Below, piece after piece: positions 12,701 to 39,217 of a DNA stretch of 45,512 nt (its first letter is position 1; each line of letters begins with the position of its first letter). The stretch is from a virus. Position numbers and translations under genes: made by a program. The notes below the pieces were generated by a model. The model searched no databases. It was not told where the DNA came from and saw only the letters and a list, made by a program, of their open reading frames with translations. The stretch covers positions 1 to 45,512 of IMG/VR virus record IMGVR_UViG_3300030108_002368; one strand, given 5' to 3'.

Positions 12701-13011
12701 GAGATAGAGCTTTTTATAGTCCTTATCCACATCCAATACTAGCACCACTAACTATTGTTACGCCACCTATTAGTAGATTTATATTACCACCAATAACATC
12801 ATTATTAGAAAATGATTTTGAAAACTTTTGGAAATATCAATTTAGTACATACTTACCATTTGGTAGAGCATTGCGTGATACATATAGAACTATACAATCT
12901 CCAGCTATGATTGTAGAATTTAGTACAGGAATACCCTTACATCAGTTTCATACAATGTCTAGAGATTATTTCTTCAACAAAGACGAAGAATTAGAAGAAG
13001 ATAACGATTAA
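3784..13011 (+). CDS. Giant virion-associated polyprotein-size protein, 3,075 aa (possible ejected enzyme; RNA-polymerase-like motif)
   Basis: A TTG start with GGAGGGA immediately upstream opens a 9.2-kb frame with no interruption. Proteins of this size at the end of podovirus structural operons are usually packaged and ejected with DNA. Hydrophobic segments lie near residues 105-129 and 245-275. A probable membrane segment lies at about 2933-2953, in a C-terminal region that resembles domains found in large polyvalent phage proteins. Around residues 1220-1270 there is an R-I-P motif (1221-1223) followed by GGADKDADK with D1260, D1262 and D1264. This recalls the DxDGD metal-binding loop of two-barrel RNA polymerases, although the glycine is Ala. 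No lysozyme or transglycosylase motif was seen. Membrane-channel, scaffold and virion RNA polymerase roles are inferences, in falling order of confidence. Confidence 0.7.
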   Translation: MNPRLNYLNNLYQQNMIDRNAYLSGLQNAYRFSPSSFSEEDIDFIEKRLRNADISFNRDLGMSEQSIGSIANQFVSGVVEGFTTLGWAEEADTTAEGLASKVGHLIGLAPDVISGVLSMGATLPATIAKRTAGKAAGKAVAKRLSPVDDAAKYIDKKLSDTAQSIKFGKEGKEVMPFARPKDPLDPKKYGFQLRSVPMRAADFLLDNASASLNKTGLVSTGFLSRGLFKNKKFRKIAHDSLHLGVGLGVSAWKDGPKGMAEAAMHGAIAGAVFSSTSEFINIGKLLANPKTQKLGEQALRRKALEARETESVMNLFARGTVGSAYTGLTATFQGAPLPDQVYEYLLGFFFGASGRSTAEREISKYITKKPMRDPLQSIDVYKKELTRGNDYQKLITEHPSAKDYIKRHLDAITEQQRAELQQLGTSIQSKFVTKAEEKNYDISNLSKKQHKELSKEIAGELEVDSVNQKTVDHYVDQAVKDADLAKKIRESLGSENFQSNILSYEDLLSRLTEKDVNEHVITQNEMLSLYKQINNKYPSLSYERFSGDLLNTATKYNNNFEQFSSAIKQTYPNVKFRNRLKTFFRRKENFILPDRYIIEESGALKKVGFREQDRDTDTNSNSIIDRYTEAKINKRYGPDTISVLDFVEVRNTQTNEIQKEKALEYFMNRFIGPNEQVKRGAQFKDLKENMFKNKNKYLAGSAKDTGNLIFRDILTKDFTNEQFMAVAKVMQKNGLLGSIETKTLTKQQSFKVTLGDKTRDIIDVEMINNALYDMMNNGIITQSPRTLTPEQLRTATETLNTKLDSGEILNSPIKRNKYRGLDGYGKDIPLNNERFAKFTTDGTIKVFRLKDRKEGRYDLETAEDGSVYVPDSFFKAVKDYIGAEKTEGMLKPLFNISAKDGKGQIIGKALIHSAKTHSKELNDFLEANKAIAGRGTAWKLNGGLKEYSVAELLKATTPDSGRMFPNELGINPDVRESVNKNQNVKLYKQFSDKNTSMLFSEQFFKDFGAIKEANRLGDPEITKKFVDSIGKEKVFTEFQLDQIGTDVIFETLSTNLNTPQARQLLKKFIELKTGENQLNYTLLDANSTADALTEYYRTNQVLDSIKNNDYSISYITQNSIRNYLYKALGDYVVSRDVKINVKHGFDSTMYPYTRALERQFQLKDNEFLLGDLRKNDPVTVEFKNGASTMRLQDALNEFQKSPKGSANYEILKDALTYAIVRIPNASTYSIRIMQLKGFAKDAGYGMINNTFTDYMLGGADKDADKVTGYQSLPSSMKKQLGRKEIQYGFNVDKDPNKNILPLKQKEVADYFFGANTENPNKQGVNLATYQDLTTKAGLYNTGVRMILGESAYIGKRDMGKIVNGGVQMNMMFDIMKQNGGKIDLDKNVTFEIKPDKEIMQLVKELGLQKEVKTPYDFLQLVNSVGLNVAADSATFGNISNAGASLTRMFNAFFNIKKDGKDVPANAKFRKYYDLFKTEYEYFDSMTGLDVTTSTKYGTNAMLAMREWSRALEGKTPINELQQQAETFLKYWDVSNEGTNPKNYLVENARILSSLPKVEWNSMSLFNYVNPDNVAVYLERTTKALQGSSILRELGVIDYYRKPLTEKELELIRKSDYRLYEKVRETVGNDLFIRSADRMLTVLEASGMTREQSINLVQKIVSTTYTIKQADYLSKVKISEKDKLKTDFDTVDNIKTDIPNTFDMTTYMLHHKRTILNLVRDMQVDKQLKRGMVDIIDEVIDFSYLSAPILTPELNKIQSKLSQRLLDTYKEMESLAESVGADRDHPQFADLQRTINRVHGISSQLVGSYQKLHQNPTISPRSLKKYNNAIDSILAQSQEKIKADRQPEQLKTAEEIRIVAEEQRQEIDRLNDIKVEVHKKVLGLESMNDLLKSDKISDYGKEQIRRYQKFYEENPGVGPYLDLIFETVSGGLNVDVKVGKPFAEATARDLDLFMTYMERKATPGLLTRLMYTKNMKPSKLAQLFFPESLEAAEMIKVMKGKSTDALKNGVRFPLVDKDKQIILKEGMIPTTLLSYNTDVIYGFHQINNGAKEFVKKEIEEKFDFLEIENGLIGTRFDIIFEYTMASREYNNGNFYSKTIDALEKSAITENYNRYKAEFDVLVKEGKTYQITDADATKGQKKKATVTELSELINTRYTDIMTNIYDNVIKSHYPALRKKLIGLGKSVDQIERIIPKNATDIERSMLELDKLFLDKNGLLSDYTKINAMFAGVRSKSKDDFLEFSRELPSQFDAQYIDYYKMLNNVLQIKYPKIDFTKPLEVGKNGMTKKLFDNIMRDVKDIKSQYKPDKYIAIGRFINLDSGRVENYVPHTDPFGTEANRKRNTEFINKQIEVEKKRIGKDPTKLHPQSQFKLQNAKDALYKNFEGALEHHIAITIGQKYDFYNLKGINLSMDLAEQSAMDLLNRRPMQFMRTQYSNMQKRGSNPLPGYDLTFNHLQRYADGMYRSWFNTLASINVGNNIERFEKLKPFGTKDEDIEVMESWAAFYRDVAVNQMGMPSLRNYSVHGIRQKELKLLQDYIDSGGNMNLYGSQKRFIDSVSAQQGLDVLQKIEVKRSGKKGASKRVMEKELLLKNLKKLAQQKNVNKINRFGSFTDLYSDEAFVGFVEKMNDTFGGNWLDNAPTTGKARQMYIARKAQQLSNLEGKFEMMSLLFHPRTFLGNIYGGSKNLLTDVSWSTVRKATNEKYMVDNIFRIGANKFIQYEITNADGTKSVKTIKTLKDWYEWQTRTGIFEDIFSQQNGYDSKLLQVGSKRAISEFIKRMLSNPDYVSMSDIDARRYQESTWRDIVNEFKLSQRAANAGSFFMRQSEMILRGTSWTSGYLKGRELLGEAAADLPFNHPILIDFANKTVKASQFIYHASERPNFANTAIGRIMTRFHPFGWNSIRRTIDVYKGGAYERWKGGMGTERAQKQLTADLFALALGSIFVSSIFEYALAPPYNWLQDTASLLFGDDEARDRAFYSPYPHPILAPLTIVTPPISRFILPPITSLLENDFENFWKYQFSTYLPFGRALRDTYRTIQSPAMIVEFSTGIPLHQFHTMSRDYFFNKDEELEEDND

Positions 13012-13111: not shown

Positions 13112-13252
13112 TTATCTTTTTTTCTTCAACTTGTCATTTTCTTTAGATAAATCAGATAAAATACGTTTTAATGGAAATTTATCAGTAAATATGTAATTAT
13201 TTTTATTTAACTCATATTCTTTCGTTAAACTCCATGCTTTATCTTCATTCAT
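13112..13252 (-). CDS. Small hypothetical protein, 46 aa
   Basis: The start overlaps the stop of the co-chaperonin gene by one base (TAATG), a layout used repeatedly in this genome for translational coupling. The 46-residue product is highly charged, starts MNEDKAWSLTKEYE and ends in a Lys-rich tail. No family is recognised. It is the last gene of the leftward operon. Confidence 0.55.
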   Translation of the reverse strand: MNEDKAWSLTKEYELNKNNYIFTDKFPLKRILSDLSKENDKLKKKR

Positions 13253-13500
13253 TATAGTACACAAAGTATATTATCTTGACTCATAAACAAAACTTCTTTT
13301 CTATCTATGTCTTGTACAACGAATCCTGGACCAAATAATACTTTGTCTCCTATTTCTACTTCATCAGCATCTTTACCTTTTGCAGTAACTACACCAACAT
13401 TTTCTTTTATGACTTCATCGGTTGTAAGTATAATACCAGCTTCTGTTTTATTATCTCTAGATTGCTGTTTAATTACAACTTCATCTCTTAAAGGTTTCAT
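13252..13500 (-). CDS. GroES-like co-chaperonin (Cpn10 family)
   Basis: This 82-residue protein shows the Cpn10 layout. There is an N-terminal MKPLRDEVVIKQ strand, a mobile-loop region (about residues 13-28, SRDNKTEAGIILTTDE) that would contact GroEL, the GVVTAKGK turn, and the EIGDKVLFGPGF segment ending in a DNILCVL strand. Phage co-chaperonins such as T4 gp31 cap host GroEL to fold the capsid protein; that role is inferred here. At 82 residues it is shorter than the usual 95-100 because the roof region is reduced. AGGAG sits six bases before the start, and a stem-closed RNA module lies just upstream (13516-13655). Confidence 0.85.
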   Translation of the reverse strand: MKPLRDEVVIKQQSRDNKTEAGIILTTDEVIKENVGVVTAKGKDADEVEIGDKVLFGPGFVVQDIDRKEVLFMSQDNILCVL

Positions 13501-13515
13501 ATTGTTCTCCTAGTT

Positions 13516-13655
13516 TTATTGGCCTACGTGTATCTATCATTAATATATGAGCCTAACCAATTAGATTTTCGATAGCTACATATAGCAACTAGTAAGGGTG
13601 AACAGGGTTTAATACCTGCAACAGTCCTTTTAACTGCTATTATGTAGGCCAATAA
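13516..13655 (-). ncRNA. Stem-closed RNA module upstream of co-chaperonin gene
   Basis: A perfect 12-bp inverted repeat (TTATTGGCCTAC at 13516-13527, GTAGGCCAATAA at 13644-13655) encloses 116 bases containing several short hairpins, for example GCTA-CATA-TAGC, CTAA-CCAA-TTAG and CAGT...ACTG. The 3' arm on the transcribed strand ends four bases before the ribosome site of the co-chaperonin gene. It is one of a set of such modules in the leftward operon. An RNase III processing site, a 5' stabiliser or a translational switch are possible roles. Confidence 0.6.
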
Positions 13656-13658
13656 TTA

Positions 13659-13799
13659 TTATTCTTCAAATAGTTTATGTATCTTTTCTAACATTGTCTT
13701 AATTATTTTCTGTTCACCTGGTGATACCCATGGTGCTTTCTTAAAATTAAGTAATGCAGACCTTAATATTAAAAGTTCTTCTTTATTAAATTTAGTCAT
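13659..13799 (-). CDS. Small hypothetical protein, 46 aa
   Basis: An ATG inside the last codons of the 79-residue gene (8-base overlap) opens a 47-codon frame. The product starts MTKFNKEELLILRSALLNF. Its N-terminal pattern (K-E-E-x-x-x-x-L-x-x-A-L) resembles that of the neighbouring 79-residue protein, which suggests a related short helical fold. Function is unknown. Confidence 0.55.
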   Translation of the reverse strand: MTKFNKEELLILRSALLNFKKAPWVSPGEQKIIKTMLEKIHKLFEE

Positions 13800-14031
13800 C
13801 GCAACTCTCACAACTTCCAGTTCTAGATTGCATATCTTCTAAACCTCTTAATATTTCTTTATCTCTTAAATCTTCAGTAAATGGATTCTCTAATTTACGT
13901 AATACATTTCTAATCATATCTGTATCAACATCTAATTGTACATTTCTATATCTATGTTTTATTGTAATTACATTAGCCAAAGCTTTTAAAACCATTTCTA
14001 CTTCTTCTTTACTTAGATTTACTTTTGCCAT
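13792..14031 (-). CDS. Hypothetical helical protein, 79 aa
   Basis: The start overlaps the end of the resolvase-like gene by 23 bases. The helical N-terminus begins MAKVNLSKEEVEMVLKAL and the C-terminus carries a CESC pair (SCESCDD). No family is recognised. It is co-transcribed with DNA metabolism genes. Confidence 0.6.
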   Translation of the reverse strand: MAKVNLSKEEVEMVLKALANVITIKHRYRNVQLDVDTDMIRNVLRKLENPFTEDLRDKEILRGLEDMQSRTGSCESCDD

Positions 14032-14341
14032 TTTTTATCTCCTTCATCATCTTTATCCATTTTTCAAGAGGCATTATAATTAACGCTTCTTTTCTATCCA
14101 TCCTTGTTACCACCGCATCTACATCATCGCCATGATAATCTGGATATAGCCATTGTGCTATCTTCTTTTTTCTTTTTGCTTGTATGGTCCAATCCTCAAC
14201 AAGACAATCAACAACTTCACTAAACCCTAGTGACCTACCATCAGAGGCATAGGCCCTCTTTGCAGAGAGCCCTTCCTCTTTAGCTGCGTTAACAATCTCA
14301 CGTTCTAGGTTGTTACCACGTATTTTATTTCTGTGTGCCAT
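14009..14341 (-). CDS. PD-(D/E)XK nuclease, Holliday-junction-resolvase-like
   Basis: The 110-residue protein has the resolvase-type arrangement: E13 in the GNNLEREIV helix, a conserved R-x-Y-x-S-D-G-R-S stretch at 29-37, D45 in SEVVDCL, and Q54-A-K56 in WTIQAKRKKK, where the usual ExK becomes QxK. This matches small Hjc/VRR-like nucleases that cut branched DNA, for example to resolve replication or recombination intermediates before packaging. It lies next to the primase-helicase. The exact substrate is not predictable. Confidence 0.65.
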   Translation of the reverse strand: MAHRNKIRGNNLEREIVNAAKEEGLSAKRAYASDGRSLGFSEVVDCLVEDWTIQAKRKKKIAQWLYPDYHGDDVDAVVTRMDRKEALIIMPLEKWIKMMKEIKNGKSKSK

Positions 14342-14507
14342 TCCATAACCTTATTGTAAAGTTCAACTCTATTGGTCCTAAAGCAAATATAATACCAAAG
14401 TGTTGTCCTCCCAAGTCTTGAAATGATACACCAATTTGAAATAGATATAGCAACGTTAGTCGTTGCTCAATAATATGTGAATCATTTATAGTATCTATTC
14501 TTATCAT
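14325..14507 (-). CDS. Hypothetical protein, 60 aa
   Basis: I choose the ATG at 14507, which overlaps the primase-helicase stop (TAATG), over the in-frame ATG at 14519. The protein is rather hydrophobic, with LYLFQIGVSF and FGIIFALGPIELNF segments. No family is recognised. It overlaps the resolvase start by 17 bases. Confidence 0.55.
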   Translation of the reverse strand: MIRIDTINDSHIIEQRLTLLYLFQIGVSFQDLGGQHFGIIFALGPIELNFTIRLWNGTQK

Positions 14508-16294
14508 TATTGACTCCAATCAACTTGTCTAAAGGTCATCGTTTCATAATCAAAGAGTGCTGTCATTTCAAACTTGCCATCATCTCTTGATTTTTCACTA
14601 GTTATTACTCTAGCTTTTTCATCACGATTACCTTTAACCATAATTACTTTATCTGCTTTCTGTACAACATTAGTACTACCTTTCAATGAATGTAATGCTA
14701 TTGTATTACCTGCTGCAGATATCTTGTTAACGTGATGCACAGCAACAATAATTATATTATGCTTCTGTGCCATTTCTTTTAATGCACCTATAATAGTATT
14801 CTGTCTTTGTATTTCAGACTCTACTCTATCAACGTGTACTTCGTCAGTAGTATCTACCACAAGAATATTAGGTTCATGTGTAGCTATTACTTTCTTGATA
14901 GCTTCTATTTCTGGTGCTATAGTCATGACTTGTATATGACCTAACTCCTCTTCAAAGTTTGGATTAGGATTCTTATTAAACATATCTAAAACCCATCCTT
15001 CTGTTTTCTTGTATGCTATTTGTATAAACCTTCTAAACGTCAAGAACTCATTCATTTCTAATGATAGAAACAATGTTTTCTTTTGAGCAAACGTTACAAC
15101 ATTCTGTACAAATGCAGACTTACCCATACCAGTATCACCAGAAAACACTACTAGTTCTCCAGGTTTAATAATATAGTCTTGGCAGTTAAATATATCAGCC
15201 ATGTTAATTGACATCTTGGTAATATCATTTTGAAGATATTCTGCTAAAGATGCTGTCAATTCATTAACATCTTTAATATCTAATGTATAATCTTTTCTTT
15301 TGAAGTGTATACATTTAGGGTCGCAATATTCTGACATAATGACATCATTGCAACCATACTGATAATTACCATCATAAACATTACTTACTGTTCTTATTAT
15401 TTCTTCATCATCCATAGTACCTGCAGACCATTGCAGCATACCATTCAAAGCAACTACATAAGGAACTCCTGCTCTTTTATAAGTACTGGACATTCTCATC
15501 ATTTTCATATTACGTTGTCCTTCAATAGGACCTTCATTGAAAGCGTGTTGCATACAAGTAACAATAGATGTTGTATCTTTGCTTTTGTATCCACCACTAC
15601 TTACTGCTTGAGATGTAGAAACAATTAGATGTTGTAAGTAAGGTTCTACTTCTTTATCAACATTTAATGTGTCGTACCAACCATCTTCTTTCCAGTGTTT
15701 GTATGATTTATAATCTGTTGCCATGTGTTTAACATCATCATATTTTAGATTCCAAACAAGACTGTAAGGTATAAATACTTTATACAATCCAGACTTTTTG
15801 TTTAAACTCCATGGTGCTCTAATAATGCGTGTTTTATCAAATATACTATCTGCAAATGATAAATGTTCTTTCATAGTAAGTTTTACTTTTTCGTGTAATA
15901 ACCTACTAGGTTGAAAGCCAAATACATTTAATAGTTCTACATGATATCCATTACCACTAAACCATACATTCACGTGAGATTTATCAATGCCTAAGTCTTC
16001 TATTTCTTTTAAGCATTGTAACAAGTAAGGTTGAAATTGGTCATCAACAATATTACCTTTGTCAATATCCAATATTATAGAATCTAAATAGGTAAGACCA
16101 TCGAATCCTTTAACAGTTCTATGTACATCTACGTGTTGTTTTAGTGTTTCGTCAAAGGAATAATATGATTTATACATTTCACCATTCCACGCATTGTCTT
16201 TTACTAACTGATTAAATTCATCGATGGTACCTATACGATTTCTATTTGAGACACTACCATTGATAATTTCAATTATAGTCTCTTTATTTTCCAT
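14507..16294 (-). CDS. Primase-helicase: AEP/PrimPol-type primase fused to RecA-like (DnaB-family) helicase
   Basis: The N-terminal half has archaeo-eukaryotic primase signatures: LDID with D76 and D78 as metal ligands, SGNGYH at 113-118, and RIIRAPWSLN at 156-165. A cysteine/histidine cluster follows (C315, C324, C328, H330), possibly a Zn or Fe-S site. The C-terminal half is a RecA-fold ATPase with Walker A GDTGMGKS at 386-393, Walker B ILVVD ending at D481, and H520-H521. It would unwind DNA and lay primers at the fork for a host polymerase, since no phage DNA polymerase is seen. It overlaps its upstream gene by 22 bases. Confidence 0.85.
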   Translation of the reverse strand: MENKETIIEIINGSVSNRNRIGTIDEFNQLVKDNAWNGEMYKSYYSFDETLKQHVDVHRTVKGFDGLTYLDSIILDIDKGNIVDDQFQPYLLQCLKEIEDLGIDKSHVNVWFSGNGYHVELLNVFGFQPSRLLHEKVKLTMKEHLSFADSIFDKTRIIRAPWSLNKKSGLYKVFIPYSLVWNLKYDDVKHMATDYKSYKHWKEDGWYDTLNVDKEVEPYLQHLIVSTSQAVSSGGYKSKDTTSIVTCMQHAFNEGPIEGQRNMKMMRMSSTYKRAGVPYVVALNGMLQWSAGTMDDEEIIRTVSNVYDGNYQYGCNDVIMSEYCDPKCIHFKRKDYTLDIKDVNELTASLAEYLQNDITKMSINMADIFNCQDYIIKPGELVVFSGDTGMGKSAFVQNVVTFAQKKTLFLSLEMNEFLTFRRFIQIAYKKTEGWVLDMFNKNPNPNFEEELGHIQVMTIAPEIEAIKKVIATHEPNILVVDTTDEVHVDRVESEIQRQNTIIGALKEMAQKHNIIIVAVHHVNKISAAGNTIALHSLKGSTNVVQKADKVIMVKGNRDEKARVITSEKSRDDGKFEMTALFDYETMTFRQVDWSQ

Positions 16295-16533
16295 CCTTTT
16301 ACCTTTGTTGTTGGGATGATAGTTTCTTCTAATTCTAGACCCAGACGCATTAAAGTGTTACCTTCACGAATCTTTCTAAATGCTCTAGAATATGTACTTG
16401 GGGTATGTACTTTTTGATGAGCCAACCTTCCATACACTGGTACTTCTGCCTCCAAATCATAGGAAGCAAACCAAGGGTCTGAAGAGTTAGCTCTACCATC
16501 AATCCATCTTAATATTATACCTTCTGCAGTCAT
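16273..16533 (-). CDS. Hypothetical replication-region protein, 86 aa
   Basis: Its start overlaps the SSB-like stop (TAATG) and its end overlaps the primase-helicase start. It contains GRLAHQKVHTPSTYSRAFRKI at about residues 35-55, which looks like a compact, positively charged helical unit, but no named domain is recognised. A helicase-loading or DNA-binding role is a guess from position. Confidence 0.55.
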   Translation of the reverse strand: MTAEGIILRWIDGRANSSDPWFASYDLEAEVPVYGRLAHQKVHTPSTYSRAFRKIREGNTLMRLGLELEETIIPTTKVKGWKIKRL

Positions 16534-17072
16534 TAGAAAGGAAGGTCATCAACAGTTTCTTTTGCCTCAACAGGTTCTCTGTTACCAAGCATTTCTTCAA
16601 CCATTGTTTCTTGTGGTTTCTGATAGTTCTTAGGATAACCTTTTGCTATCTGAGCCATAAATTTCTTTTCTAACTCAGCAGTATCATTAGGTGAAGATAC
16701 TACTCCCCAAGTAGCTCTTTTATATTTTCCTGTTGCTGCATAGTTTATACAAGCAACTTCACCATCAATTAGTGTATCAACATTTACTTCGCCTACATCA
16801 GATACGTTTATATCTTTGTTAGCTGCAAGATAAAGTGTATTTAAGTCATCTGGAAATGCCATACCAGTTACAACACCATTCACATCTTTTTCAAAGTTCT
16901 GATTGATAAATGTAGTATAGTTATATCCATTGTCTTTATCTTCTAGTTTTAGTCTTACACTACAATCATTGTATTGAGAATCAATTTGTTCTGCTTCTAC
17001 AATACGACATTGATTGACAAACCAATTTTTATTAGAAGTGTTGGTTTTCACTTTTGTTCCAGTAATAGCCAT
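16533..17072 (-). CDS. Single-stranded DNA-binding-like protein
   Basis: The 179-residue protein has a beta-rich N-terminal part (about residues 1-125) and a low-complexity Pro/Glu linker. It ends in VDDLPF, matching the acidic DDxPF tail by which bacterial SSB recruits replication proteins. The OB-fold itself cannot be proven by eye. It follows the annealing protein with no gap (AAGGAG inside that gene) and precedes the primase-helicase, fitting an SSB or SSB-like recombination cofactor. Confidence 0.65.
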   Translation of the reverse strand: MAITGTKVKTNTSNKNWFVNQCRIVEAEQIDSQYNDCSVRLKLEDKDNGYNYTTFINQNFEKDVNGVVTGMAFPDDLNTLYLAANKDINVSDVGEVNVDTLIDGEVACINYAATGKYKRATWGVVSSPNDTAELEKKFMAQIAKGYPKNYQKPQETMVEEMLGNREPVEAKETVDDLPF

Positions 17073-17639
17073 TTACTTAGCTCCTTCTGTTTTCGTTAAC
17101 GATTCAAAGTACTCTGTACTCTGACTTACTTTAAGTTTTGTATCAAAGAATCCTGCTTGACGTTTTTGTTTATAACGTAAGTAATCATCTTCTGGAAGTT
17201 TCTTAGCATCATTAGCTAACCTTGCTGCCTTGTCCATCGCCTCTAATGATTTGATAGTAGGATTAATTTGCTTTTGTTTTGCTTTTGCATTTTCTACTTC
17301 TTCTTTACTTGCTATTGCAAAGTCACCACCAAATCCTGCAAATGCTAATGCACGACCTACTGCTGATGTTTCACAATTTTCTAGTGCTGATGTTTTGTTT
17401 ACAAATCCTGTATTATCACGTTCAGCTGCTAAACCCATGTAATACCATTCTGGTTGTTGCATAGGATTTGGTCTAACTATTGCTTGTACAACATATTCAT
17501 TACAGGTTTCTCCTGTAGGTGTATCAATAACTTGATTTACACTAATTAGTTTTGATTCAATAGTTGATTCTGGAAACTCATCTGCGAATGCGATAAGTCT
17601 ATCTTTTACTTCGGTATAATCTTTACCTTTAAATTTCAT
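17073..17639 (-). CDS. Single-strand annealing protein, Erf/Rad52-like
   Basis: The 188-residue protein carries ENCETSAVGRALAFAGFGG at 87-105. This S-A-V-G-R-A-L-A-x-x-G-x-G signature is shared by Erf-type and related phage annealing proteins. Such proteins anneal complementary single strands during recombination-dependent replication or circularisation. The charged C-terminal third would be a flexible tail. The start has AAGGAG upstream, and a 16-bp hairpin lies between this gene and the preceding one. Pairing with the SSB-like gene next door supports the call. Confidence 0.75.
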   Translation of the reverse strand: MKFKGKDYTEVKDRLIAFADEFPESTIESKLISVNQVIDTPTGETCNEYVVQAIVRPNPMQQPEWYYMGLAAERDNTGFVNKTSALENCETSAVGRALAFAGFGGDFAIASKEEVENAKAKQKQINPTIKSLEAMDKAARLANDAKKLPEDDYLRYKQKRQAGFFDTKLKVSQSTEYFESLTKTEGAK

Positions 17640-17668
17640 ATAATATCTCCTTATTATATATTTATTAT

Positions 17669-17713
17669 TATTTAGATTAGGAAGTTAAATATAATTACTC
17701 CCTAATCCAAATA
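17669..17713 (-). promoter_or_regulatory. Long simple RNA hairpin upstream of annealing-protein gene
   Basis: TATTTAGATTAGGAAG (17669-17684) and CTCCCTAATCCAAATA (17698-17713) pair over 16 bp around a 13-base loop. The two non-Watson-Crick positions are A-C on the plus strand but G-U on the transcribed minus strand. No U-tract follows, so it is not a typical terminator. The 3' arm lies about 15 bases from the AAGGAG of the annealing gene. A processing or stabilising hairpin is inferred. Confidence 0.6.
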
Positions 17714-17722
17714 CTTTATCTA

Positions 17723-17971
17723 TTAAAATGGTTTATCTACTGTATATATAGGCATACCAAGGGGTGTGTCATATAGATATTTTAAATCCCAACCTCTTAT
17801 CATAGTATTTTCTCTCCATGTACAATAAACATAATATGACCATTCATCTATTAATTTAGGTTCAAGATAATATTTTCGTTGTTCTTCTATCTCAAACCCT
17901 TCTATTCTTTTCATTACAAACTGTTTTGCAAGTAATTGTAATTCATCTTTTCTATATCGTTTCTTAATCAT
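17723..17971 (-). CDS. Hypothetical protein, 82 aa
   Basis: The ATG overlaps the upstream MazG-like gene by 8 bases and has GGAG eight bases before it. The protein is rich in aromatic residues (WSYYVYCTWREN, YLYDTPLG). No family is recognised. Confidence 0.6.
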   Translation of the reverse strand: MIKKRYRKDELQLLAKQFVMKRIEGFEIEEQRKYYLEPKLIDEWSYYVYCTWRENTMIRGWDLKYLYDTPLGMPIYTVDKPF

Positions 17972-18341
17972 ATATCAACTCCATATATTTAATTGTTTGA
18001 TAACAAGTGTTAAACAATATATTACCCATCATATGTGCATGATATCTTTGGTCTTCATCTTGTGCTTTACTTATTAGATTTAGTGCGATAGAAGACAAAT
18101 ACACAATAGCATCACATAATTCTTCGTATGCTTCTTGTGTAAATATTCTACCATCTGAATCTTCTATTGGTACTTGCATACCATACTTTTCAGCACCAAT
18201 ATCCATTCGTTTACCAATATCATCCATCAGATACAATGAATACTTTCTACTTTGTGGTACTATATTTTCAGCATCAAGCTGCTCACGTACCATTTTCAAA
18301 GTATTCTGTATATTAGTTATTATTCTTGCATTATTTTCCAT
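17964..18341 (-). CDS. MazG-like nucleotide pyrophosphohydrolase
   Basis: The core GAEKYG (49-54) followed by TQEAYEELCDAIVYL (68-82) matches the all-alpha MazG/dUTPase-like layout. E70, E73, E74 and D77 are likely Mg-binding residues. Phage members hydrolyse dNTPs or (p)ppGpp-type nucleotides, balancing pools for replication or damping the stringent response. At 125 residues the length suits a single-domain member. AGGAG stands seven bases before the start, which overlaps the previous gene. Substrate is not inferable. Confidence 0.55.
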   Translation of the reverse strand: MENNARIITNIQNTLKMVREQLDAENIVPQSRKYSLYLMDDIGKRMDIGAEKYGMQVPIEDSDGRIFTQEAYEELCDAIVYLSSIALNLISKAQDEDQRYHAHMMGNILFNTCYQTIKYMELIYD

Positions 18342-18588
18342 CAGATTCTCCTAGTCCTTTTGCTCGTATCTCTTGTAGATATTCCATATATTTTTGTAAC
18401 TTAATATTATAGTCGAAACTTAATTCATCTATAATATCTTTCAATACATCTATTTGTGCTAGTTCACCTAATTCATTGTATGACTTAGTAAAAACAATAT
18501 CTGTAGCGACATCATCAGCATGATATATTGTCGCACATATTTTATCATTTTTATCATTATATTCTCTTTTCATTCTGTATTTACTCAT
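18331..18588 (-). CDS. Hypothetical protein, 85 aa
   Basis: It starts in an ATGA overlap with the upstream gene, with GGAG eight bases before. The sequence is charged, with a C-terminal helix (YNIKLQKYMEYLQEIRAKG). No family is recognised. Confidence 0.6.
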   Translation of the reverse strand: MSKYRMKREYNDKNDKICATIYHADDVATDIVFTKSYNELGELAQIDVLKDIIDELSFDYNIKLQKYMEYLQEIRAKGLGESDGK

Positions 18589-18830
18589 AACTCAGCTCCA
18601 TCAGTTTCTCTTTCAGGAAACTCCATATGCTTTGTTCTTAAATGGTCATTACGTTCGTGATTTAAGTTTGATATATTATCCTCAACTTCATCTAATGCTT
18701 GTTTAAATTCTTCTAATATACCATCATAATCTAAACTATAACCTGTTTCCTCATCAAAGCTATAGTAAACATTAACAGTAATTACAGGTGAATTTGAACC
18801 TGTATTCCATTCTACTTGTATGTCATCCAT
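18585..18830 (-). CDS. Hypothetical acidic protein, 81 aa
   Basis: The TAATG overlap with the zinc-ribbon gene and the ATGA overlap at its end show tight translational coupling. The product is strongly acidic in its N-terminal 50 residues (VYYSFDEETGYSLDYDG). Function unknown. Confidence 0.6.
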   Translation of the reverse strand: MDDIQVEWNTGSNSPVITVNVYYSFDEETGYSLDYDGILEEFKQALDEVEDNISNLNHERNDHLRTKHMEFPERETDGAEL

Positions 18831-19087
18831 TACATTCTACTCCCATCCATTATTTCGTCATATTTATCTTTATTGCCTCCGCATTCTTCAGCAATCTTTT
18901 CTTTAAATTCAAAGTATGTTATTGGTTTTACTTCATCTTCACATGTATCACACCAATAATTACTATTGTCCATAAAATCTACTAATGTTTCTGTGTTAAT
19001 ATCAACCCAGGCACCTTGAGATACTTCTTCTGAACCACAATAATCACATACCCACATATCATCCATGTTTTTTTGTACTTGACTCAC
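18830..19087 (-). CDS. Small zinc-ribbon-like protein, 85 aa
   Basis: I prefer a GTG start at 19087 because AGGAG lies five bases upstream; ATG at 19066 is the alternative. Two CxxC pairs (C14/C17 and C46/C49) spaced by 28 residues form a zinc-ribbon pattern. The rest is acidic. Such small ribbons often mediate protein contacts or modulate transcription, but no specific role is visible. Confidence 0.55.
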   Translation of the reverse strand: MSQVQKNMDDMWVCDYCGSEEVSQGAWVDINTETLVDFMDNSNYWCDTCEDEVKPITYFEFKEKIAEECGGNKDKYDEIMDGSRM

Positions 19088-19277
19088 TTGCACTCCTATC
19101 AAATTGTTCTATCCAACTTTTTTGTTTTCTTGTTCTTTTAGGATAACCTGTAAACCAATACCAATGACCAAAACGTTTATAAAACTCTTTATTAGTTTCT
19201 TCACGCCATTTTTTAGTATGTTTTACCTTTGTTTCTATGAAGAACTTTGGTTCTCCATCTATTACTTTCCAAGGCAT
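19059..19277 (-). CDS. Hypothetical basic aromatic protein, 72 aa
   Basis: GGAGGG precedes the ATG. The protein is basic with many Trp/Phe/Tyr residues (RFGHWYWFTGYPKRTRKQK, about residues 35-53). No family is recognised. A structured RNA module lies directly upstream at 19296-19428. Confidence 0.6.
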   Translation of the reverse strand: MPWKVIDGEPKFFIETKVKHTKKWREETNKEFYKRFGHWYWFTGYPKRTRKQKSWIEQFDRSASESSTKKHG

Positions 19278-19295
19278 ATGCCCTCCTTATTGTTT

Positions 19296-19428
19296 ATCAT
19301 CCCCTAGCTGTGTTTACCATCTAGATTTATACCCCACACACCATTGAGAATGGTTAGTCGTTGCGAACCTAGCAACAGTTTTTTATCTCGGTGCTCTGTG
19401 AGGTACCAGGCCATCACTAGGGGACAAT
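19296..19428 (-). ncRNA. Stem-closed RNA module in early operon
   Basis: ATCATCCCCTAG (19296-19307) and CTAGGGGACAAT (19417-19428) form a 12-bp closing stem with two positions that pair only as G-U on the minus strand. Inside are clear hairpins: ACCATT-GAG-AATGGT and GTTGC-GAACCTA-GCAAC. The 3' arm ends about seven bases before the ribosome site of the gene at 19277. The remaining bases up to 19494 hold no gene and no structure I can support. Confidence 0.6.
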
Positions 19429-19494
19429 ATTTTTGGCTGTATCCTGGAGAACTGGACCATTTAACTCACCACTCGGGGAGCACCAATTATTAAA

Positions 19495-19953
19495 TTACCA
19501 ACTACATTCGTAGATAACTCTTTCGCCATCTGCTAATGCTTCTCTTGCAAATTCTACAAATTCTAAATCTTTGTCTTTGTAGTCTTTTGCTGCTTCCTCT
19601 TGAAACTCGTGACCCCAGAAGAATCCACCGTCACAAAAGTATCTGCAATATCCATTGTTTATAGCTTCTTCTAATCTGTCAATGTCATCTTCTAATAGTT
19701 CTATTTTATTCCAAGATATAGGGTTCCAAACAACATCTGCATCTTCTCCATCGTGCATCTTACTTTGTTCCCATTTAGATTGAAGTTTATTTCTTTCCAT
19801 ATGAAGGGTGTTCATAAACTCCTGTAGTCTAGCGTGTTTACGCCATTCAAATGGACCTGCCATCTGATATTTCTCTTCTTTCTTTTCACCTTGTGGTGTT
19901 GTGTATTCGTACACTTTTTCACGCATTGTACCTGCGTATTGGTCTAAACCCAT
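19495..19953 (-). CDS. Hypothetical phage protein, 152 aa (MGLDQY family-like)
   Basis: AAGGAG lies eight bases before the ATG. The N-terminal MGLDQY and the FEWRKHARLQEFM segment (about residues 35-47) recall a common but uncharacterised phage family that starts MGLDxY and has a WRKxxxLxxWM-type motif. The C-terminal half includes CRYFCDGGFFWGHE. Function unknown. Confidence 0.65.
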   Translation of the reverse strand: MGLDQYAGTMREKVYEYTTPQGEKKEEKYQMAGPFEWRKHARLQEFMNTLHMERNKLQSKWEQSKMHDGEDADVVWNPISWNKIELLEDDIDRLEEAINNGYCRYFCDGGFFWGHEFQEEAAKDYKDKDLEFVEFAREALADGERVIYECSW

Positions 19954-19967
19954 ATCATTTCTCCTTA

Positions 19968-20333
19968 TTATAGTTCTGCTTCATAATAGCAAGAACCTTG
20001 TTCTTTTATACAATCAACTATTTGTTTGCCTAATCTTAATCTTGCATACCATACAAGTAATTCTTTAAGTTTATCTTCACTTATATTTAATGCTTTTGCA
20101 AGTTCTTCATGCGTATATGAATCGTGTTTAGCAAAAAATTTATCTATTTCTTTTTTATATTTACCTAATGTATCTAAACATTCTTCAACACCTTCTTCTG
20201 CTGTTTCTAAGTCATCAGAATAATATTGAATATGATTTTGTTGCTCACGCATACCAAAATATTCACCATCATCAGACGATTGAACTGCAAACCAAAACTT
20301 ACCTTCTATATCTCCGTGATAATATCTTCCCAT
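19968..20333 (-). CDS. Hypothetical early protein, 121 aa
   Basis: AAGGAG lies six bases before the ATG. The N-terminus MGRYYHGDIEGKFWFAVQSS is of a type I associate with uncharacterised marine phage proteins. The C-terminal half contains a possible helix-turn-helix-like segment (THEELAKALNISEDKLKELL, about residues 74-93), which could bind DNA. A structured module sits immediately upstream (20352-20444). Confidence 0.6.
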   Translation of the reverse strand: MGRYYHGDIEGKFWFAVQSSDDGEYFGMREQQNHIQYYSDDLETAEEGVEECLDTLGKYKKEIDKFFAKHDSYTHEELAKALNISEDKLKELLVWYARLRLGKQIVDCIKEQGSCYYEAEL

Positions 20334-20351
20334 TTATTTCTCCTTATTGTT

Positions 20352-20444
20352 ATAATAAGGGCAAACGCTTAAAACCCGTAGGCGCATTTGACCAGCTCCG
20401 CAGGTATTACTATATATATGCCTGTCCTTATATGCCCTTATTAT
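20352..20444 (-). ncRNA. Stem-closed RNA module 1 of a tandem trio
   Basis: A perfect 12-bp inverted repeat (ATAATAAGGGCA at 20352-20363, TGCCCTTATTAT at 20433-20444) encloses 69 bases, including CAGG...CCTG and CGC...GCG pairings. The 3' arm on the minus strand lies about six bases from AAGGAG of the gene at 20333. It is the last of three adjacent modules in transcription order. Confidence 0.6.
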
Positions 20445-20456
20445 TATTAATATTAT

Positions 20457-20529
20457 TCAGAACTGAGGTAACTCAGAATACCAATGCATTGTAGGCTAGA
20501 ATATTTCGTTATTGTTACCTCTATTCTGA
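20457..20529 (-). ncRNA. Stem-closed RNA module 2 of a tandem trio
   Basis: TCAGAA (20457-20462) pairs with TTCTGA (20524-20529) and GAGGTAAC (20465-20472) with GTTACCTC (20514-20521), separated by a two-by-two internal loop that gains one G-U pair on the minus strand. The loop side contains CTGAG-GTAA-CTCAG, an alternative hairpin. The lower stem is shared with module 3. Confidence 0.55.
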
Positions 20530-20534
20530 TTTAT

Positions 20535-20667
20535 TCAGAACTGAAATGGCTTGAGGCATTATCCACGTCACACTTAAGAGGGGATAAAGTATTCAATTAG
20601 CACAATTTTATTCCACTAAAGGGCTCACATTTAAGTTACTTTTCCTGTAACACCATTTCTATTCTGA
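20535..20667 (-). ncRNA. Stem-closed RNA module 3 of a tandem trio
   Basis: TCAGAA (20535-20540) and GAAATGG (20543-20549) pair with TTCTGA (20662-20667) and CCATTTC (20653-20659), with the same CT/TA internal loop as module 2. The adjoining arms of modules 2 and 3 (TTCTGA at 20524, TCAGAA at 20535) are themselves complementary across five bases, so an alternative fold joining the modules is possible. Together with modules 1 and 2 this fills the 368-base gap 20334-20701, in which I see no gene. Confidence 0.55.
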
Positions 20668-20701
20668 TTTAACTGCAACTATTGTCGTCTTACGTTATCA
20701 A

Positions 20702-21424
20702 TTAGTCTTGAAGTTCTCCTGTATCAGGGTCTACTTCTTTCATACCATTTTCAGTTTGTTCTAAACTATCTATGATACTAATGTTTTGATTAGCAAGTCT
20801 AACTAACATAAACTTTCTAATTTCTGATATATGCATATCAGCATTCTGTGCTTCAACTAAAGCAAGTTTATCGTGAAGGAACTCTTCAATGTCATCCCAT
20901 TCAAGATTCTTACCTGTGTCATACATATAGTTTACTAACTTGTCATCACCTGGATGTACAGTTTTGTACCATTCAATAGAGTCTTCATTCAAAGTAAATG
21001 TTTCACTTTCAATTTCATACTCTATATCTTCAAGCACTACTTGTTCTAGTTCATTTCTAAATGGTTGTGCATCATCAAATTCAGGGTCTCCACCTTCGAC
21101 TAATACTTCATTTAGATTTACACAATTTGCATATGTATCATATATTTCGTGTTCTTGTTCGTAATAACTAACACGATAATCTGCATTTGCTGGTACTTCA
21201 CCATATTCATACAGATTTTTTGCTGTTGATTTTGCCATTTTATCATAGCAAACACTTAGACCATTGTAAATATCAATAGCACTTAATGTTTGTGTATTGA
21301 TATCTATGACATTCATTATCTTCCAATAGTTAAAGAACATTGTAGATAATGAATCAATACTTGGTGCTTGTTTATCATTATCACCAAGTCTGCTATATAA
21401 GAACCACATAGTTCTATCTATCAT
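20702..21424 (-). CDS. Hypothetical acidic early protein, 240 aa
   Basis: AAAAGGAG precedes the ATG. The protein is acidic, with two helical regions (about residues 20-70 and 185-225), and ends EVDPDTGELQD. I recognise no domain. It is the largest unknown of the leftward block. Confidence 0.65.
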   Translation of the reverse strand: MIDRTMWFLYSRLGDNDKQAPSIDSLSTMFFNYWKIMNVIDINTQTLSAIDIYNGLSVCYDKMAKSTAKNLYEYGEVPANADYRVSYYEQEHEIYDTYANCVNLNEVLVEGGDPEFDDAQPFRNELEQVVLEDIEYEIESETFTLNEDSIEWYKTVHPGDDKLVNYMYDTGKNLEWDDIEEFLHDKLALVEAQNADMHISEIRKFMLVRLANQNISIIDSLEQTENGMKEVDPDTGELQD

Positions 21425-21446
21425 TTTACTCTCCTTTTTATTATTA

Positions 21447-21764
21447 TTAATCTAATAGCGTCATATACGCTTTTGCATTATTATCTCTAAACCAATCTAA
21501 GCCTTGTCTTACAATCTTTTGTAATCCAGGACTTGTCATATACATTGGCATCATTTGAGCACCCATAATCATTGAGTACACACTTTCTTCCACTGGTGTT
21601 AACCTGTATGTTTCTCCACTAAATGGATTTTGTACTGTTAACAACTCGTGTCCTTCTTCAAGGAATGTTGCCTCTTCCATTTCATAAGGAAATTTAGTAT
21701 ACTTTTCTTTGCTTGTAACTTCTTTTCCTGTTCCATCAATGTATGTTATATTATCTTTTTTCAT
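21447..21764 (-). CDS. Hypothetical protein, 105 aa
   Basis: AAGGAA lies eight bases before the ATG, which overlaps the upstream gene by 14 bases. A central NPFSGETYRLTPVEESVYSM segment (about residues 46-65) is followed by a Met-rich stretch. It resembles uncharacterised small proteins of marine phages. No function is visible. Confidence 0.6.
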   Translation of the reverse strand: MKKDNITYIDGTGKEVTSKEKYTKFPYEMEEATFLEEGHELLTVQNPFSGETYRLTPVEESVYSMIMGAQMMPMYMTSPGLQKIVRQGLDWFRDNNAKAYMTLLD

Positions 21765-22017
21765 TATTCATTTCCTTCCATTCTTCTATCCATTCTTTAA
21801 CAATATCTATTTCTTCATTGAACTCGCCTTGCATCATTATCTCGTCAAGTGTTCCATCTTCGTTTAGATATTGTTCTACTTTGTATATGCTTTGTAACCA
21901 AAACCATCCTGCATATGATTGTGCGTCTTCAAGTTTTTTATCTAAGAACCTTACAAGTTCTTTACTACCCGCACCAAATAGTCCTACTTTCTTTTTTGTT
22001 TCAAGTGTTGTACTCAT
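21751..22017 (-). CDS. Hypothetical protein, 88 aa
   Basis: ATGA overlap with the upstream gene. Mixed charged helical protein, MSTTLETKKKVGLFGAGSK at the N-terminus and a Glu/Trp-rich C-terminal helix. The GLFGAGSK stretch is not a convincing P-loop because there is no RecA or AAA context. Function unknown. Confidence 0.6.
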   Translation of the reverse strand: MSTTLETKKKVGLFGAGSKELVRFLDKKLEDAQSYAGWFWLQSIYKVEQYLNEDGTLDEIMMQGEFNEEIDIVKEWIEEWKEMNNEKR

Positions 22018-22238
22018 CTGTAACTTTCCTTTTCATCATTATATTTATCTGCATAGTACTCGGCTTCTCTTGCCCATCTTTCTTTTACTTTTTCTACTCG
22101 CATACGAAATAGTTCGTCATTATCTTCATCATAATACACTAACCAAATCGTATCTCTATCTATTACTTCTTTTGAGGTAACTGAACACTTATGTAATTCT
22201 TTAATGTTCATATTACCATAAAGTTCCTGTTTATCCAT
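22014..22238 (-). CDS. Hypothetical protein, 74 aa
   Basis: AAGGA lies about ten bases before the ATG. The middle reads SKEVIDRDTIWLVYYDEDND, with a charged C-terminal helix. Function unknown. A structured RNA module is directly upstream. Confidence 0.6.
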   Translation of the reverse strand: MDKQELYGNMNIKELHKCSVTSKEVIDRDTIWLVYYDEDNDELFRMRVEKVKERWAREAEYYADKYNDEKESYR

Positions 22239-22262
22239 ATTATTTTTCCTTATAGTTAAAGT

Positions 22263-22346
22263 GTGCTGGCAAGGGAAAGGAAGTTTAGTATTTGCCTATA
22301 ATCCCTAAAACAAATACCCATGAAAAAAAACAAACCTTGCCAACAC
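22263..22346 (-). ncRNA. Stem-closed RNA module in early operon
   Basis: GTGCTGGCAAGG (22263-22274) and CCTTGCCAACAC (22335-22346) form a 12-bp stem whose single imperfect pair is C-A on the plus strand but G-U on the transcribed minus strand. Inside, GTATTTG and CAAATAC form a 7-bp hairpin. The 3' arm lies about 11 bases before the ribosome site of the gene at 22238. Confidence 0.65.
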
Positions 22347-22368
22347 TGTAAACGATATACTTCCTTTT

Positions 22369-22740
22369 TTAGTTAACCCAACTTGGGGTCCATTGCATAT
22401 CAAATGTAATTGTAACTGTGCTATCTTCTTCTACTACTTCATCAAGTATTTTGATAACTTCGTCACGCATACTTTCTATGCTTTTTCTCTCTGATTCTTG
22501 TTCTGCCTCTTTTACATATGATTTATGTAAACTATCAGATACTGCTAATTCTTCTTCAGAGAGTTCTGGTAACACTGGACCATATTGTTCTAAGTCTTTG
22601 TTTGTTACCTTTTCTGGTGTATATTCTGATTGTGACATACTACTTGTTGCTGGTCTGTAAGTATCTACAACCCAACCTAAATAAAATAATACACTCAATC
22701 CTAATAACACTATGATTAATGCTAATCTATCTTTATTCAT
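22369..22740 (-). CDS. Small membrane-anchored protein, 123 aa
   Basis: I place the start at 22740 because GGAGAAC lies just upstream; the longer in-frame start at 22827 would run through the structured gap. Residues about 5-25 form a hydrophobic segment (LALIIVLLGLSVLFYLGWVV), followed by an acidic, mainly helical exterior. A single-pass inner-membrane protein is inferred. In the early block, candidate roles are superinfection exclusion or host takeover, but nothing specific is recognised. Confidence 0.6.
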   Translation of the reverse strand: MNKDRLALIIVLLGLSVLFYLGWVVDTYRPATSSMSQSEYTPEKVTNKDLEQYGPVLPELSEEELAVSDSLHKSYVKEAEQESERKSIESMRDEVIKILDEVVEEDSTVTITFDMQWTPSWVN

Positions 22741-22776
22741 ATTGTTCTCCATTTTTTTGTGTGTAAATATACGAAA

Positions 22777-22848
22777 TAATAAGACAAATAGGTAGGCATA
22801 TCTACCATTATGTAAGCGTTCTCGCAACTTACTCTATCTGTCTTATTA
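22777..22848 (-). ncRNA. Three-way-junction RNA module
   Basis: TAATAAGACAAATAG (22777-22791) and CTATCTGTCTTATTA (22834-22848) form a 15-bp closing stem. Its one imperfect pair is A-C on the plus strand but U-G on the minus strand. Two hairpins fill the interior: GTAG/CTAC (22792-22805) and GTAAG/CTTAC (22812-22832). It is the most downstream of three modules in the 329-base gap 22741-23069. Confidence 0.65.
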
Positions 22849-22868
22849 CTTCTTGCCTCTTGTAATTC

Positions 22869-22959
22869 TTGTAGAATATAACATCTATGCTATCCATAGC
22901 GTGGGATTCGAACCCTTTTCTTAGAACCGTCGTTCATATCTAAATATTATATTCTACAA
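22869..22959 (-). ncRNA. Cloverleaf-like RNA module with T-loop-type hairpin
   Basis: A perfect 13-bp inverted repeat (TTGTAGAATATAA at 22869-22881, TTATATTCTACAA at 22947-22959) encloses three hairpins: TTAGA/TCTAA (22921-22943), a GGG-TTCGAAT-CCC arm on the minus strand (22903-22915), and GCTAT-CC-ATAGC (22889-22900). The four-way layout and the GGTTCGAATCC loop are tRNA-like. The closing stem is far too long, the arm order is wrong and there is no CCA end, so it is not a standard tRNA. Confidence 0.65.
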
Positions 22960-22969
22960 ATTAATCTTT

Positions 22970-23035
22970 TGCTTACATTTAAAAGTTATTCTCTACGGCT
23001 AGTTCTCAACCAAGAATATCATAACTCTGTAAGCA
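22970..23035 (-). ncRNA. Stem-closed RNA module
   Basis: TGCTTACA (22970-22977) pairs with TGTAAGCA (23028-23035) and AGTTAT (22984-22989) with ATAACT (23021-23026), giving an extended hairpin. It is the first transcribed of the three tandem modules between the genes at 23070 and 22740. No gene is seen in this gap. Confidence 0.5.
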
Positions 23036-23069
23036 TTAGTTTCATAATCGATTAATTGAACTAATTTCT

Positions 23070-23288
23070 TTAATTATAGAATGCTGACTGACTACCGCTT
23101 GTAGTAGATAACCTATCATATCCACGATAATCTTTCATCATACTTTTTACTTCTTGTAATGTTTGGCATTCATCTAACGCAAGTAATGCTCTGTATTTTA
23201 AGTTACCAAACTCAAATCTCTTGCTACCGAATGCAACATTCCATTTTCTATTTAATTCACAAATTAAGTGATATCTCATACTTTTCAT
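23070..23288 (-). CDS. Hypothetical protein, 72 aa
   Basis: AAGGAAA precedes the ATG. The product is basic, with an FGNLKYRALLALDECQTLQE segment. No family is recognised. It is flanked on both sides by structured RNA modules, as if transcribed as a separate processed unit. Confidence 0.55.
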   Translation of the reverse strand: MKSMRYHLICELNRKWNVAFGSKRFEFGNLKYRALLALDECQTLQEVKSMMKDYRGYDRLSTTSGSQSAFYN

Positions 23289-23309
23289 GATTGTTTCCTT
23301 TTTTATTAT

Positions 23310-23455
23310 TGTATTAATAGATAATACATAGTTTTTGTCTGCAACACTTATTACTATGCCAATCTACTCGCATTCAATGTTGTATACACATTATCAATTA
23401 TAAAGTAGTGTCGTATTATTCAGTGCACGCTCTATTGTTTTTATCTATCAATACA
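23310..23455 (-). ncRNA. Stem-closed RNA module near the head of the early operon
   Basis: TGTATTAATAGATAA (23310-23324) and TTATCTATCAATACA (23441-23455) pair over 15 bp, with one position that is A-C on plus and U-G on minus. Interior pairings include AATGT...ACATT and CAACA...TGTTG. The 3' arm lies about seven bases before the AAGGAAA ribosome site of the gene at 23288. Confidence 0.65.
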
Positions 23456-23517
23456 TTTTTTTACTTGTAGGGTATTTAAAGTGCATAGAGACACGAATGC
23501 CTCTACACACTATGAAC

Positions 23518-38131: not shown

Positions 38132-39217
38132 ATGGCTTTACAATCATCAGGTGAAATAAAGATAAGTCAGATACTTACTGAGTTAGATTATGCTAGTAAT
38201 AGAGCTAATTCTGAATTAGAAAATCTATCTACTGGTAGTGGTGCATTGTATGGACATACTATTAATACAGCTAATGCAAGTGCTGATAGACCTGATGGCA
38301 ATGCACCTCATGCAATGTCTGAGTTTTATAGTTATGACCACGATGCTGGAGTATCTTGGTCTATTAGTGGTAATACTGGATTACATTGTACTGGAGAAGC
38401 TGGACAAACTGATATGGCAAATAGTTTTGCAACAATAACATTATCTGGTGGTAGTGGAGGTGTTGATGTAAATAACTTTACTACTAGTGGTGGACCATTT
38501 GGTAATTTAAAATTTCAATTTACTACAGATGGAAGTACACCAAGCAGTGGTACAAGTGGAGCATCTAGTATTACTCAGTTACAAAATTCATTAAGTAGTT
38601 TTAATTCTGGTACATTGAAGTTAAGACCAGGTTGGCAACATACACCTTCTAATAAAGATGGTACTGGTTCATTTAGTTTTACTTTGGTAAATAATGGTGC
38701 TAATACTGCAGCTATAACTGGTAATATAACTTTCCAGTCTGGTGGTTTAGGACAAGGATTGTGTATACATGGTAGTATATTAGTCAATACTCCTGATGGT
38801 ATGAAAAGCATATATGACTTAGATAATGGTGATATTATATATTCTTATAACTTTGAAACAGAAAGTATAGAAGAAGTACCAATATTAGATACATTATTTG
38901 TAGCACATAATAATTTAATTAAAGTTATGTATGATGATAACGATGAATTGAAAAATATAATAGTAACTAGAGACCACCCTATATATTTAGCAGATGGTTC
39001 TATGGCTAGTTATAGGCCACAAAGAACAAAAGATTTATATGATTTAGATGCAAATCAATTAGAAGTAGGTAATACTATACAAATGATTGATGGCACAAAA
39101 GTAATACATAGATTTGAGTATATGGCAGATAAAGATACTACATATACTATATTAACAAAAAACAATAACTTTTACGCAGGTGGCGTATTAGTACATAGTG
39201 AAATAAATGAAAGTTAG
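38132..39217 (+). CDS. Tail/fibre protein with C-terminal Hint (hedgehog/intein-type) domain
   Basis: Residues about 1-210 form a Gly/Ser-rich structural part (FN3-like TTDGSTPSSGTSG and others). Residues 211-361 are a Hint domain: C211 in GLCIHGSILVNT, a block-B TRDH motif (T279, H282), and a terminal VLVHS with H355. The usual terminal Asn is S356 and there is no following extein, so splicing is not expected. Thioester-driven cleavage or attachment at C211 is possible, as in hedgehog and bacterial BIL proteins. It would release or modify the preceding fibre segment. Confidence 0.7.
   Translation: MALQSSGEIKISQILTELDYASNRANSELENLSTGSGALYGHTINTANASADRPDGNAPHAMSEFYSYDHDAGVSWSISGNTGLHCTGEAGQTDMANSFATITLSGGSGGVDVNNFTTSGGPFGNLKFQFTTDGSTPSSGTSGASSITQLQNSLSSFNSGTLKLRPGWQHTPSNKDGTGSFSFTLVNNGANTAAITGNITFQSGGLGQGLCIHGSILVNTPDGMKSIYDLDNGDIIYSYNFETESIEEVPILDTLFVAHNNLIKVMYDDNDELKNIIVTRDHPIYLADGSMASYRPQRTKDLYDLDANQLEVGNTIQMIDGTKVIHRFEYMADKDTTYTILTKNNNFYAGGVLVHSEINES

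Follow-up and report, generated by a model that had tools for sequence, protein, structure and literature searches.

Exchangeable stem-clamped RNA modules in the early operon of an uncultured phage group

The long intergenic gaps in the early operon of a phage genome from IMG/VR (record IMGVR_UViG_3300030108_002368; the whole analyzed stretch of 45,512 nt is hereafter called the window) contain RNA modules that are each closed by a stem and lie on the minus strand of the operon. These modules are structured, bear the mark of selection on the operon strand, show covariation in several cases, are portable between related phages and are independent of the gene located downstream. The same phenomenon was observed in approximately 100 related loci of IMG/VR, which represent a phage group of uncultured members. 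On sequence grounds, we consider it plausible, at slightly below an even chance, that the modules are exchangeable stem-clamped structured RNAs of the early transcript, of which the portable ones would probably act in trans and a few slot-fixed ones probably in cis.

Stem-closed modules in long intergenic gaps

An original prediction, made from the sequence of the window, proposed that eleven stem-closed elements (E1 to E11) occupy all gaps longer than about 80 nt between leftward genes. We re-derived the stems from the sequence and found all eleven on the minus strand at the predicted positions, and the gene model yielded exactly the seven gaps of at least 80 nt that had been named (158, 83, 217, 368, 130, 329 and 229 nt). 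An apparent gap of 165 nt (14342–14506) was really an open reading frame (ORF; 14325–14519), which behaves as coding DNA. Dinucleotide shuffling reproduced the best stem of each of the seven gaps in just 0–4 of 100 cases. Folding z-scores ranged from –2.2 to –6.2 in six of the gaps, compared with an average of –1.3 for 39 coding windows; the one exception was gap 20334–20701 (z = –0.9). Although the eleven elements are real, two more had been missed, namely a UUCG-capped hairpin and a conserved element next to E3 (Table 1). The predicted stem of E7 exists but forms just one helix of an H-type pseudoknot, and those of E8 and E9 are longer than had been proposed. The gene model places the start of gene 22369 at 22740 and that of gene 23518 at 23853, which makes E8 intergenic.

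To collect relatives, we used three protein scans of IMG/VR, which shared some contigs. Helicase relatives comprised 17 at 76–92% identity and further ones at 55–60%, and 80 related loci were linked by terminase. No close relative of the phage was found in a cultured-phage collection, and a host search among genome contigs returned one distant helicase match only (24%). Among 1454 co-directional gene junctions of the related loci (redundant contigs included), 68% were shorter than 20 nt, 3% measured 20–60 nt and 29% at least 60 nt. At least one strong closing stem was present in 240 of 316 distinct long gaps. The 261 distinct modules, mostly ~40–350 nt long and many per genome, fell into approximately 150 sequence families, 107 of which were singletons; the number of families is approximate and is set by the single-linkage threshold of blastn. 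The idea of one family of elements was accordingly abandoned, as most modules are unrelated in sequence.

With respect to imperfect positions in the window stems, eight G-U and no A-C had been counted; we likewise found no A-C, but the number of G-U was nine, and two A-A mismatches were located at the equivalent spot in the E5 and E6 stems. In the related phages, the ratio of G-U to A-C was 287:77 in gap stems and 262:159 in coding stems (Fisher test, P = 4e-7), with G-U and A-C given equal score when stems were called. This excess of G-U over A-C is as expected for RNA on the operon strand. T-rich tails (at least five T in the next 8 nt) were found for 13 of the 261 modules, and the modules are not Rho-independent terminators. 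Promoter-like sites occurred at 2.6 per kb in gaps and 2.1 per kb in genes, with a total not above that of shuffles, and the promoter type of the phage may differ from the one sought. Because the modules are not terminators and show no clear promoter enrichment, they presumably travel within the early mRNA.

Covariation and conserved interiors

The E1 family comprised 27 members with 11 distinct closing-arm pairs. A MAFFT alignment of all members misplaced the closing 3' arms, and pairs were therefore counted on parsed arms. All nine counted pairs of helix P1 were always formed, each with two-sided changes, and when closing arms were swapped among members, 0 of 2000 swaps reached the real pairing. 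Two-sided changes were also observed for three of four pairs in P2 and all four in P3. In most members the P2 loop can pair with a segment 3' of P3, and the partners are altered yet complementary in loci L016 and L019 and, as read by eye, in L020; this putative pseudoknot of the P2 loop is thus supported. The P2 loop contains an invariant AGGA (e.g. L029:12712), even where the pseudoknot partner differs; it looks like a Shine-Dalgarno core and may be retained for another reason. A small peptide encoded by E1 was considered and rejected: one variant has a short ORF, which single-nucleotide indels between members disrupt. Directly after E1, two relatives carry a module of ~255 nt that does not occur in the window (L010:12231-12490 and L018:12789-13050; closing AATATTGTAATG/CATTACAATATT).

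E5 and E6 belong to class A, of which 33 distinct modules were found. Their outer arms, TCAGAATAGA/TCAGTTCTGA, are near-invariant around ~10 unrelated interiors, the inner arms covary, and the arms include a fixed 2x2 internal loop (UA/AG). All 60 occurrences of class A lay on the operon strand and none on the opposite one, although overlapping loci inflate the count of 60. The UUCG hairpin was 98% paired, seven pairs had changed on both sides, and 0 of 500 shuffles attained its covariation score; UNCG hairpins as such were commoner in gaps (0.36 versus 0.09 per kb), chiefly due to this slot. Helix 1 of E7 (nine pairs) was 100% paired, with two-sided changes in four pairs, every one from L010. 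Covariation was weak in E2 (one two-sided pair), and E4, E10 and E11 had too few homologues for such an analysis. Lack of covariation, which would have refuted the original prediction, was checked where possible, and the prediction withstood this check. The proposed selection on the transcribed RNA is supported by the G-U bias, the restriction of class A to the operon strand, and the covariation seen in the class-A arms, E1, E7 and the UUCG hairpin.

E9 was represented by four distinct sequences. Its interior consists of a GAAC-GACG-GUUC hairpin, the T-loop GGGUUCGAAUCCC, which is identical in all four, and a GG-bearing hairpin with a 6-nt loop and a covarying stem, complete in three (GCUAUGGAUAGC / GCCUUGGUUGGC / GCCACGGUUGGC). 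The canonical T-loop hairpin and the GG loop resemble both partners of the tRNA elbow, which we regard as a lead only, with a putative tertiary contact; however, E9 lacks a tRNA fold, and its clamp has 18–20 bp, compared with 7 bp in the tRNA acceptor. A tRNA-related reading of all modules was rejected, as T-arm hairpins were not enriched in gaps (two cases), and it was retained for E9 alone. The motifs GGUUGGC and AUAUCAGUUAG recur across several module families; the recurrence arises partly from the splitting of E1 into several clusters, and it was judged too weak to suggest a shared target. The string ATATCAGTTAG also recurs within otherwise unrelated modules of many related loci (e.g. L020, L038 and L216).

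Portability and gene context

Several modules are more similar between phages than their surroundings. For example, E6 is 99% identical to its copy in L010, with flanks at 80–87%, and E1 of the window is 94% identical over 134 nt to that of L030, a locus in which no neighbouring match exceeds 75% and the helicase protein is just 56% identical. Exchange works both ways: in L242 the E9 interior is shared with the window but the closing arms are largely different, whereas class-A interiors are replaced and the arms kept. Class A was found before several gene families, and E1 in three contexts, one of which has no gene; within the main E1 family, six modules lack a downstream gene and stand at the operon end, before a convergent gene. 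In the window, E1 adjoins the gene for a GroES-like co-chaperonin (Cpn10; 13252–13500, minus strand), whereas in several distant relatives this position is empty of any gene and E1 closes the operon.

The same gene may also occur with or without a module. Modules were present before gene 22369 in 8 of 22 orthologues, before 19059 in 8/16, before 19968 in 7/10 and before 13252 in 13/15, and the remaining orthologues had no real gap; these counts rest on predicted gene starts. On the other hand, a long gap was always present before gene 17073 (37/37 orthologues; the slot of E2, with a stem above threshold in 26), 22014 (10/10) and 23070 (10/10), and a cis role is likely at these three slots because they are always filled. 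Judging from these comparisons, modules can apparently be swapped between phages independently of neighbouring genes. The 3' arms do lie just ahead of the next Shine-Dalgarno sequence, as had been noted, and end at a median of 28 nt from the next start codon, but this position does not imply that a module serves the downstream gene as a leader. Three findings speak against leaders: E1 stands last in the operon of several relatives, a given gene may or may not be preceded by a module, and one interior can be found ahead of unrelated genes.

Table 1. Structured elements in the early operon of the window
Element	Position	Strand	Description
E1	13516..13655	-	closing stem, P2 hairpin with invariant AGGA, P3 hairpin, putative loop-P2 pseudoknot, conserved TTGGTTGGCA-type segment; 27 members
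E2	17669..17713	-	simple long hairpin preceding an ERF-like gene; slot never empty, cis role probable
E3	19296..19428	-	closing stem and conserved core; long and short forms; 14 sequences
Extra conserved element	19433..19486	-	homologous elements in L015 and, at a different slot, in L104; weak fold
E4	20352..20444	-	12-bp closing stem; singleton
E5	20457..20529	-	class-A module, arms TCAGAATAGA ... TCAGTTCTGA
E6	20535..20667	-	class-A module, in tandem with E5
E7	22263..22346	-	helix 2 and loops of H-type pseudoknot
E7 helix 1, 5' strand	22359..22367	-	partner strand 22276-22284
E8	22773..22852	-	three-way-junction-like module
E9	22868..22960	-	18-20 bp clamp; interior with canonical T-loop GGGTTCGAATCCC and GG-containing hairpin with 6-nt loop
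E10	22970..23035	-	short-stem module; near-identical copy solely in L018
E11	23310..23455	-	large module with 15-bp clamp; singleton
UUCG-capped hairpin	23481..23510	-	14 bp; after first early gene

Elsewhere in the window, the plus strand encodes a protein of 3,060–3,075 residues (3784–13011), which related loci keep at ~29–56%; its identification as an N4-type RNA polymerase was rejected, as it has no domain match in Pfam or PHROGs. The same strand encodes a tail-region protein whose C-terminal domain is of HINT type (38132–39217; Pfam PT-HINT and AXH matches) and a protein with a weak thioredoxin-like match slightly under the curated cut-off (39726–40106). No phage-encoded RNA-binding protein was recognized by Pfam or PHROGs among the proteins scanned.

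Comparison with known RNAs and possible roles

Neither the window nor 14 related loci matched any family of Rfam release 15 at the gathering score. When the early region was searched less stringently, nothing credible emerged, the only hit being 13 nt of a tmRNA T-arm at E9. ARAGORN detected no tRNA or tmRNA, either in the window or in 35 loci. The early mRNA of T7 carries RNase III processing hairpins, which are simple and related to each other. The modules are likewise structured intercistronic elements of a polycistronic early phage transcript, and the class-A clamp, like those sites, consists of two short helices flanking an internal loop; however, the modules are mostly multi-branched or pseudoknotted, diverse and portable. 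The contrast drawn with T7 in the original prediction thus holds for most of them, E2 alone being T7-like. In form only, the UUCG hairpin also corresponds to the long near-perfect hairpin of an RNase III site, which modules with branches or pseudoknots do not. ROOL and GOLLD have been linked to phages and resemble the modules as elaborate structured RNAs, but they are single large RNAs, and their covariance models gave no match in the Rfam scans, assuming that release 15 includes them. One report describes them as ornate RNAs whose function is not known (PMC12286853). Two others present candidate structured RNAs from comparative genomics, partly of marine metagenomes (PMC2864571, PMC2704228); the modules differ from such RNAs in matching no Rfam model. 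We found no description of cassette-like RNA exchange in the open-access literature, which leaves most subscription journals uncovered; structured RNAs as such are familiar from phages, and the exchangeable, cassette-like arrangement appears to be new.

We propose that the early polycistronic mRNA might carry stand-alone RNA cassettes from a repertoire with rapid exchange, in which the closing stem would clamp each module; in class A, the clamp would serve as an unvarying platform and the interior as exchangeable cargo. The portable modules (E1, class A, E9 and probably E3–E6 and E8–E11) would most likely function in their own right. They could fold co-transcriptionally, would probably be excised or protected at the clamp, and might bind host factors in trans as decoys or inhibitors; the T-loop and GG loop of E9 hint at tRNA-handling proteins as targets. 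Portable autonomous RNAs are favoured because the modules are independent of the downstream gene, their interiors are conserved and their clamps are interchangeable, whereas excision, trans action and a target are what we infer. The slot-fixed E2, UUCG hairpin and E7 are more likely to act in cis on the processing or stability of the mRNA. More tentatively still, the modules may form a shared pool of clamped RNA cargo that is swapped like accessory genes and used early, in trans, against host RNA-handling or defence proteins.

Several observations weigh against a predominantly trans function. All modules lie within mRNA with their 3' arms at the short distance from the start codon given above, and three slots are never empty, features equally compatible with a cis role; since the majority of families are singletons in this set, a sequence-specific function is conjectural for those; and cis elements exchanged through homologous flanks would look similar. 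The strongest rival is a generic cis role, with the modules as processing sites, nuclease roadblocks or insulators that govern the stability or translation of adjacent genes; shape alone would matter, and sequences would diverge since repeats in the same genome would recombine. We regard this explanation as a serious if somewhat doubtful one. It accords with the confinement of modules to the operon, of class A to the operon strand, with the position of the 3' arm and with the constant slots, and the fixed internal loop of class A could be a cleavage site. However, E1 lacks a downstream gene in several relatives, orthologous genes are frequently without a module, and the sequence-specific interiors of E1 and E9, together with the E1 pseudoknot, exceed the needs of a generic roadblock.

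The complex, aptamer-like folds ahead of Shine-Dalgarno sites could also suggest a riboswitch-like or antitermination switch, but such control of the downstream gene is improbable, given that one module family precedes differing genes or none, T-rich tails are rare and no Rfam riboswitch matched. Constant gene association, as for a riboswitch-type leader, was not seen for E1 or class A, and the slots of E2 and E7 were constant. Inverted-repeat ends, movement between genomes and tandem copies are features of small mobile elements with terminal inverted repeats, and single-stranded-DNA structures could be envisaged as well; a role at the DNA level is nevertheless very unlikely, being already disfavoured by the predominance of G-U over A-C on one strand and the single orientation of class A, and further by internal RNA covariation and pseudoknots. 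Hairpins form easily in low-G+C DNA, and the folding energy of gap 20334–20701 is ordinary; even so, terminators, chance or assembly artefacts are scarcely credible with recurrence in ~100 loci from independent contigs and few T-rich tails, and are refuted by covariation for E1, class A and the UUCG hairpin.

Phage accessory functions have been sought almost solely among proteins. In this phage group, nearly all intergenic space of the early operon is filled by ~150 kinds of folded RNA, which turn over as accessory genes do. E1, with its 27 covarying members and putative pseudoknot, is ready for structure probing and an Rfam entry. Should the modules act in trans, they would constitute a large and so far untapped source of natural inhibitors or decoys made of RNA; should they act in cis, they would represent an extreme organization of polycistronic mRNA through shape rather than sequence.

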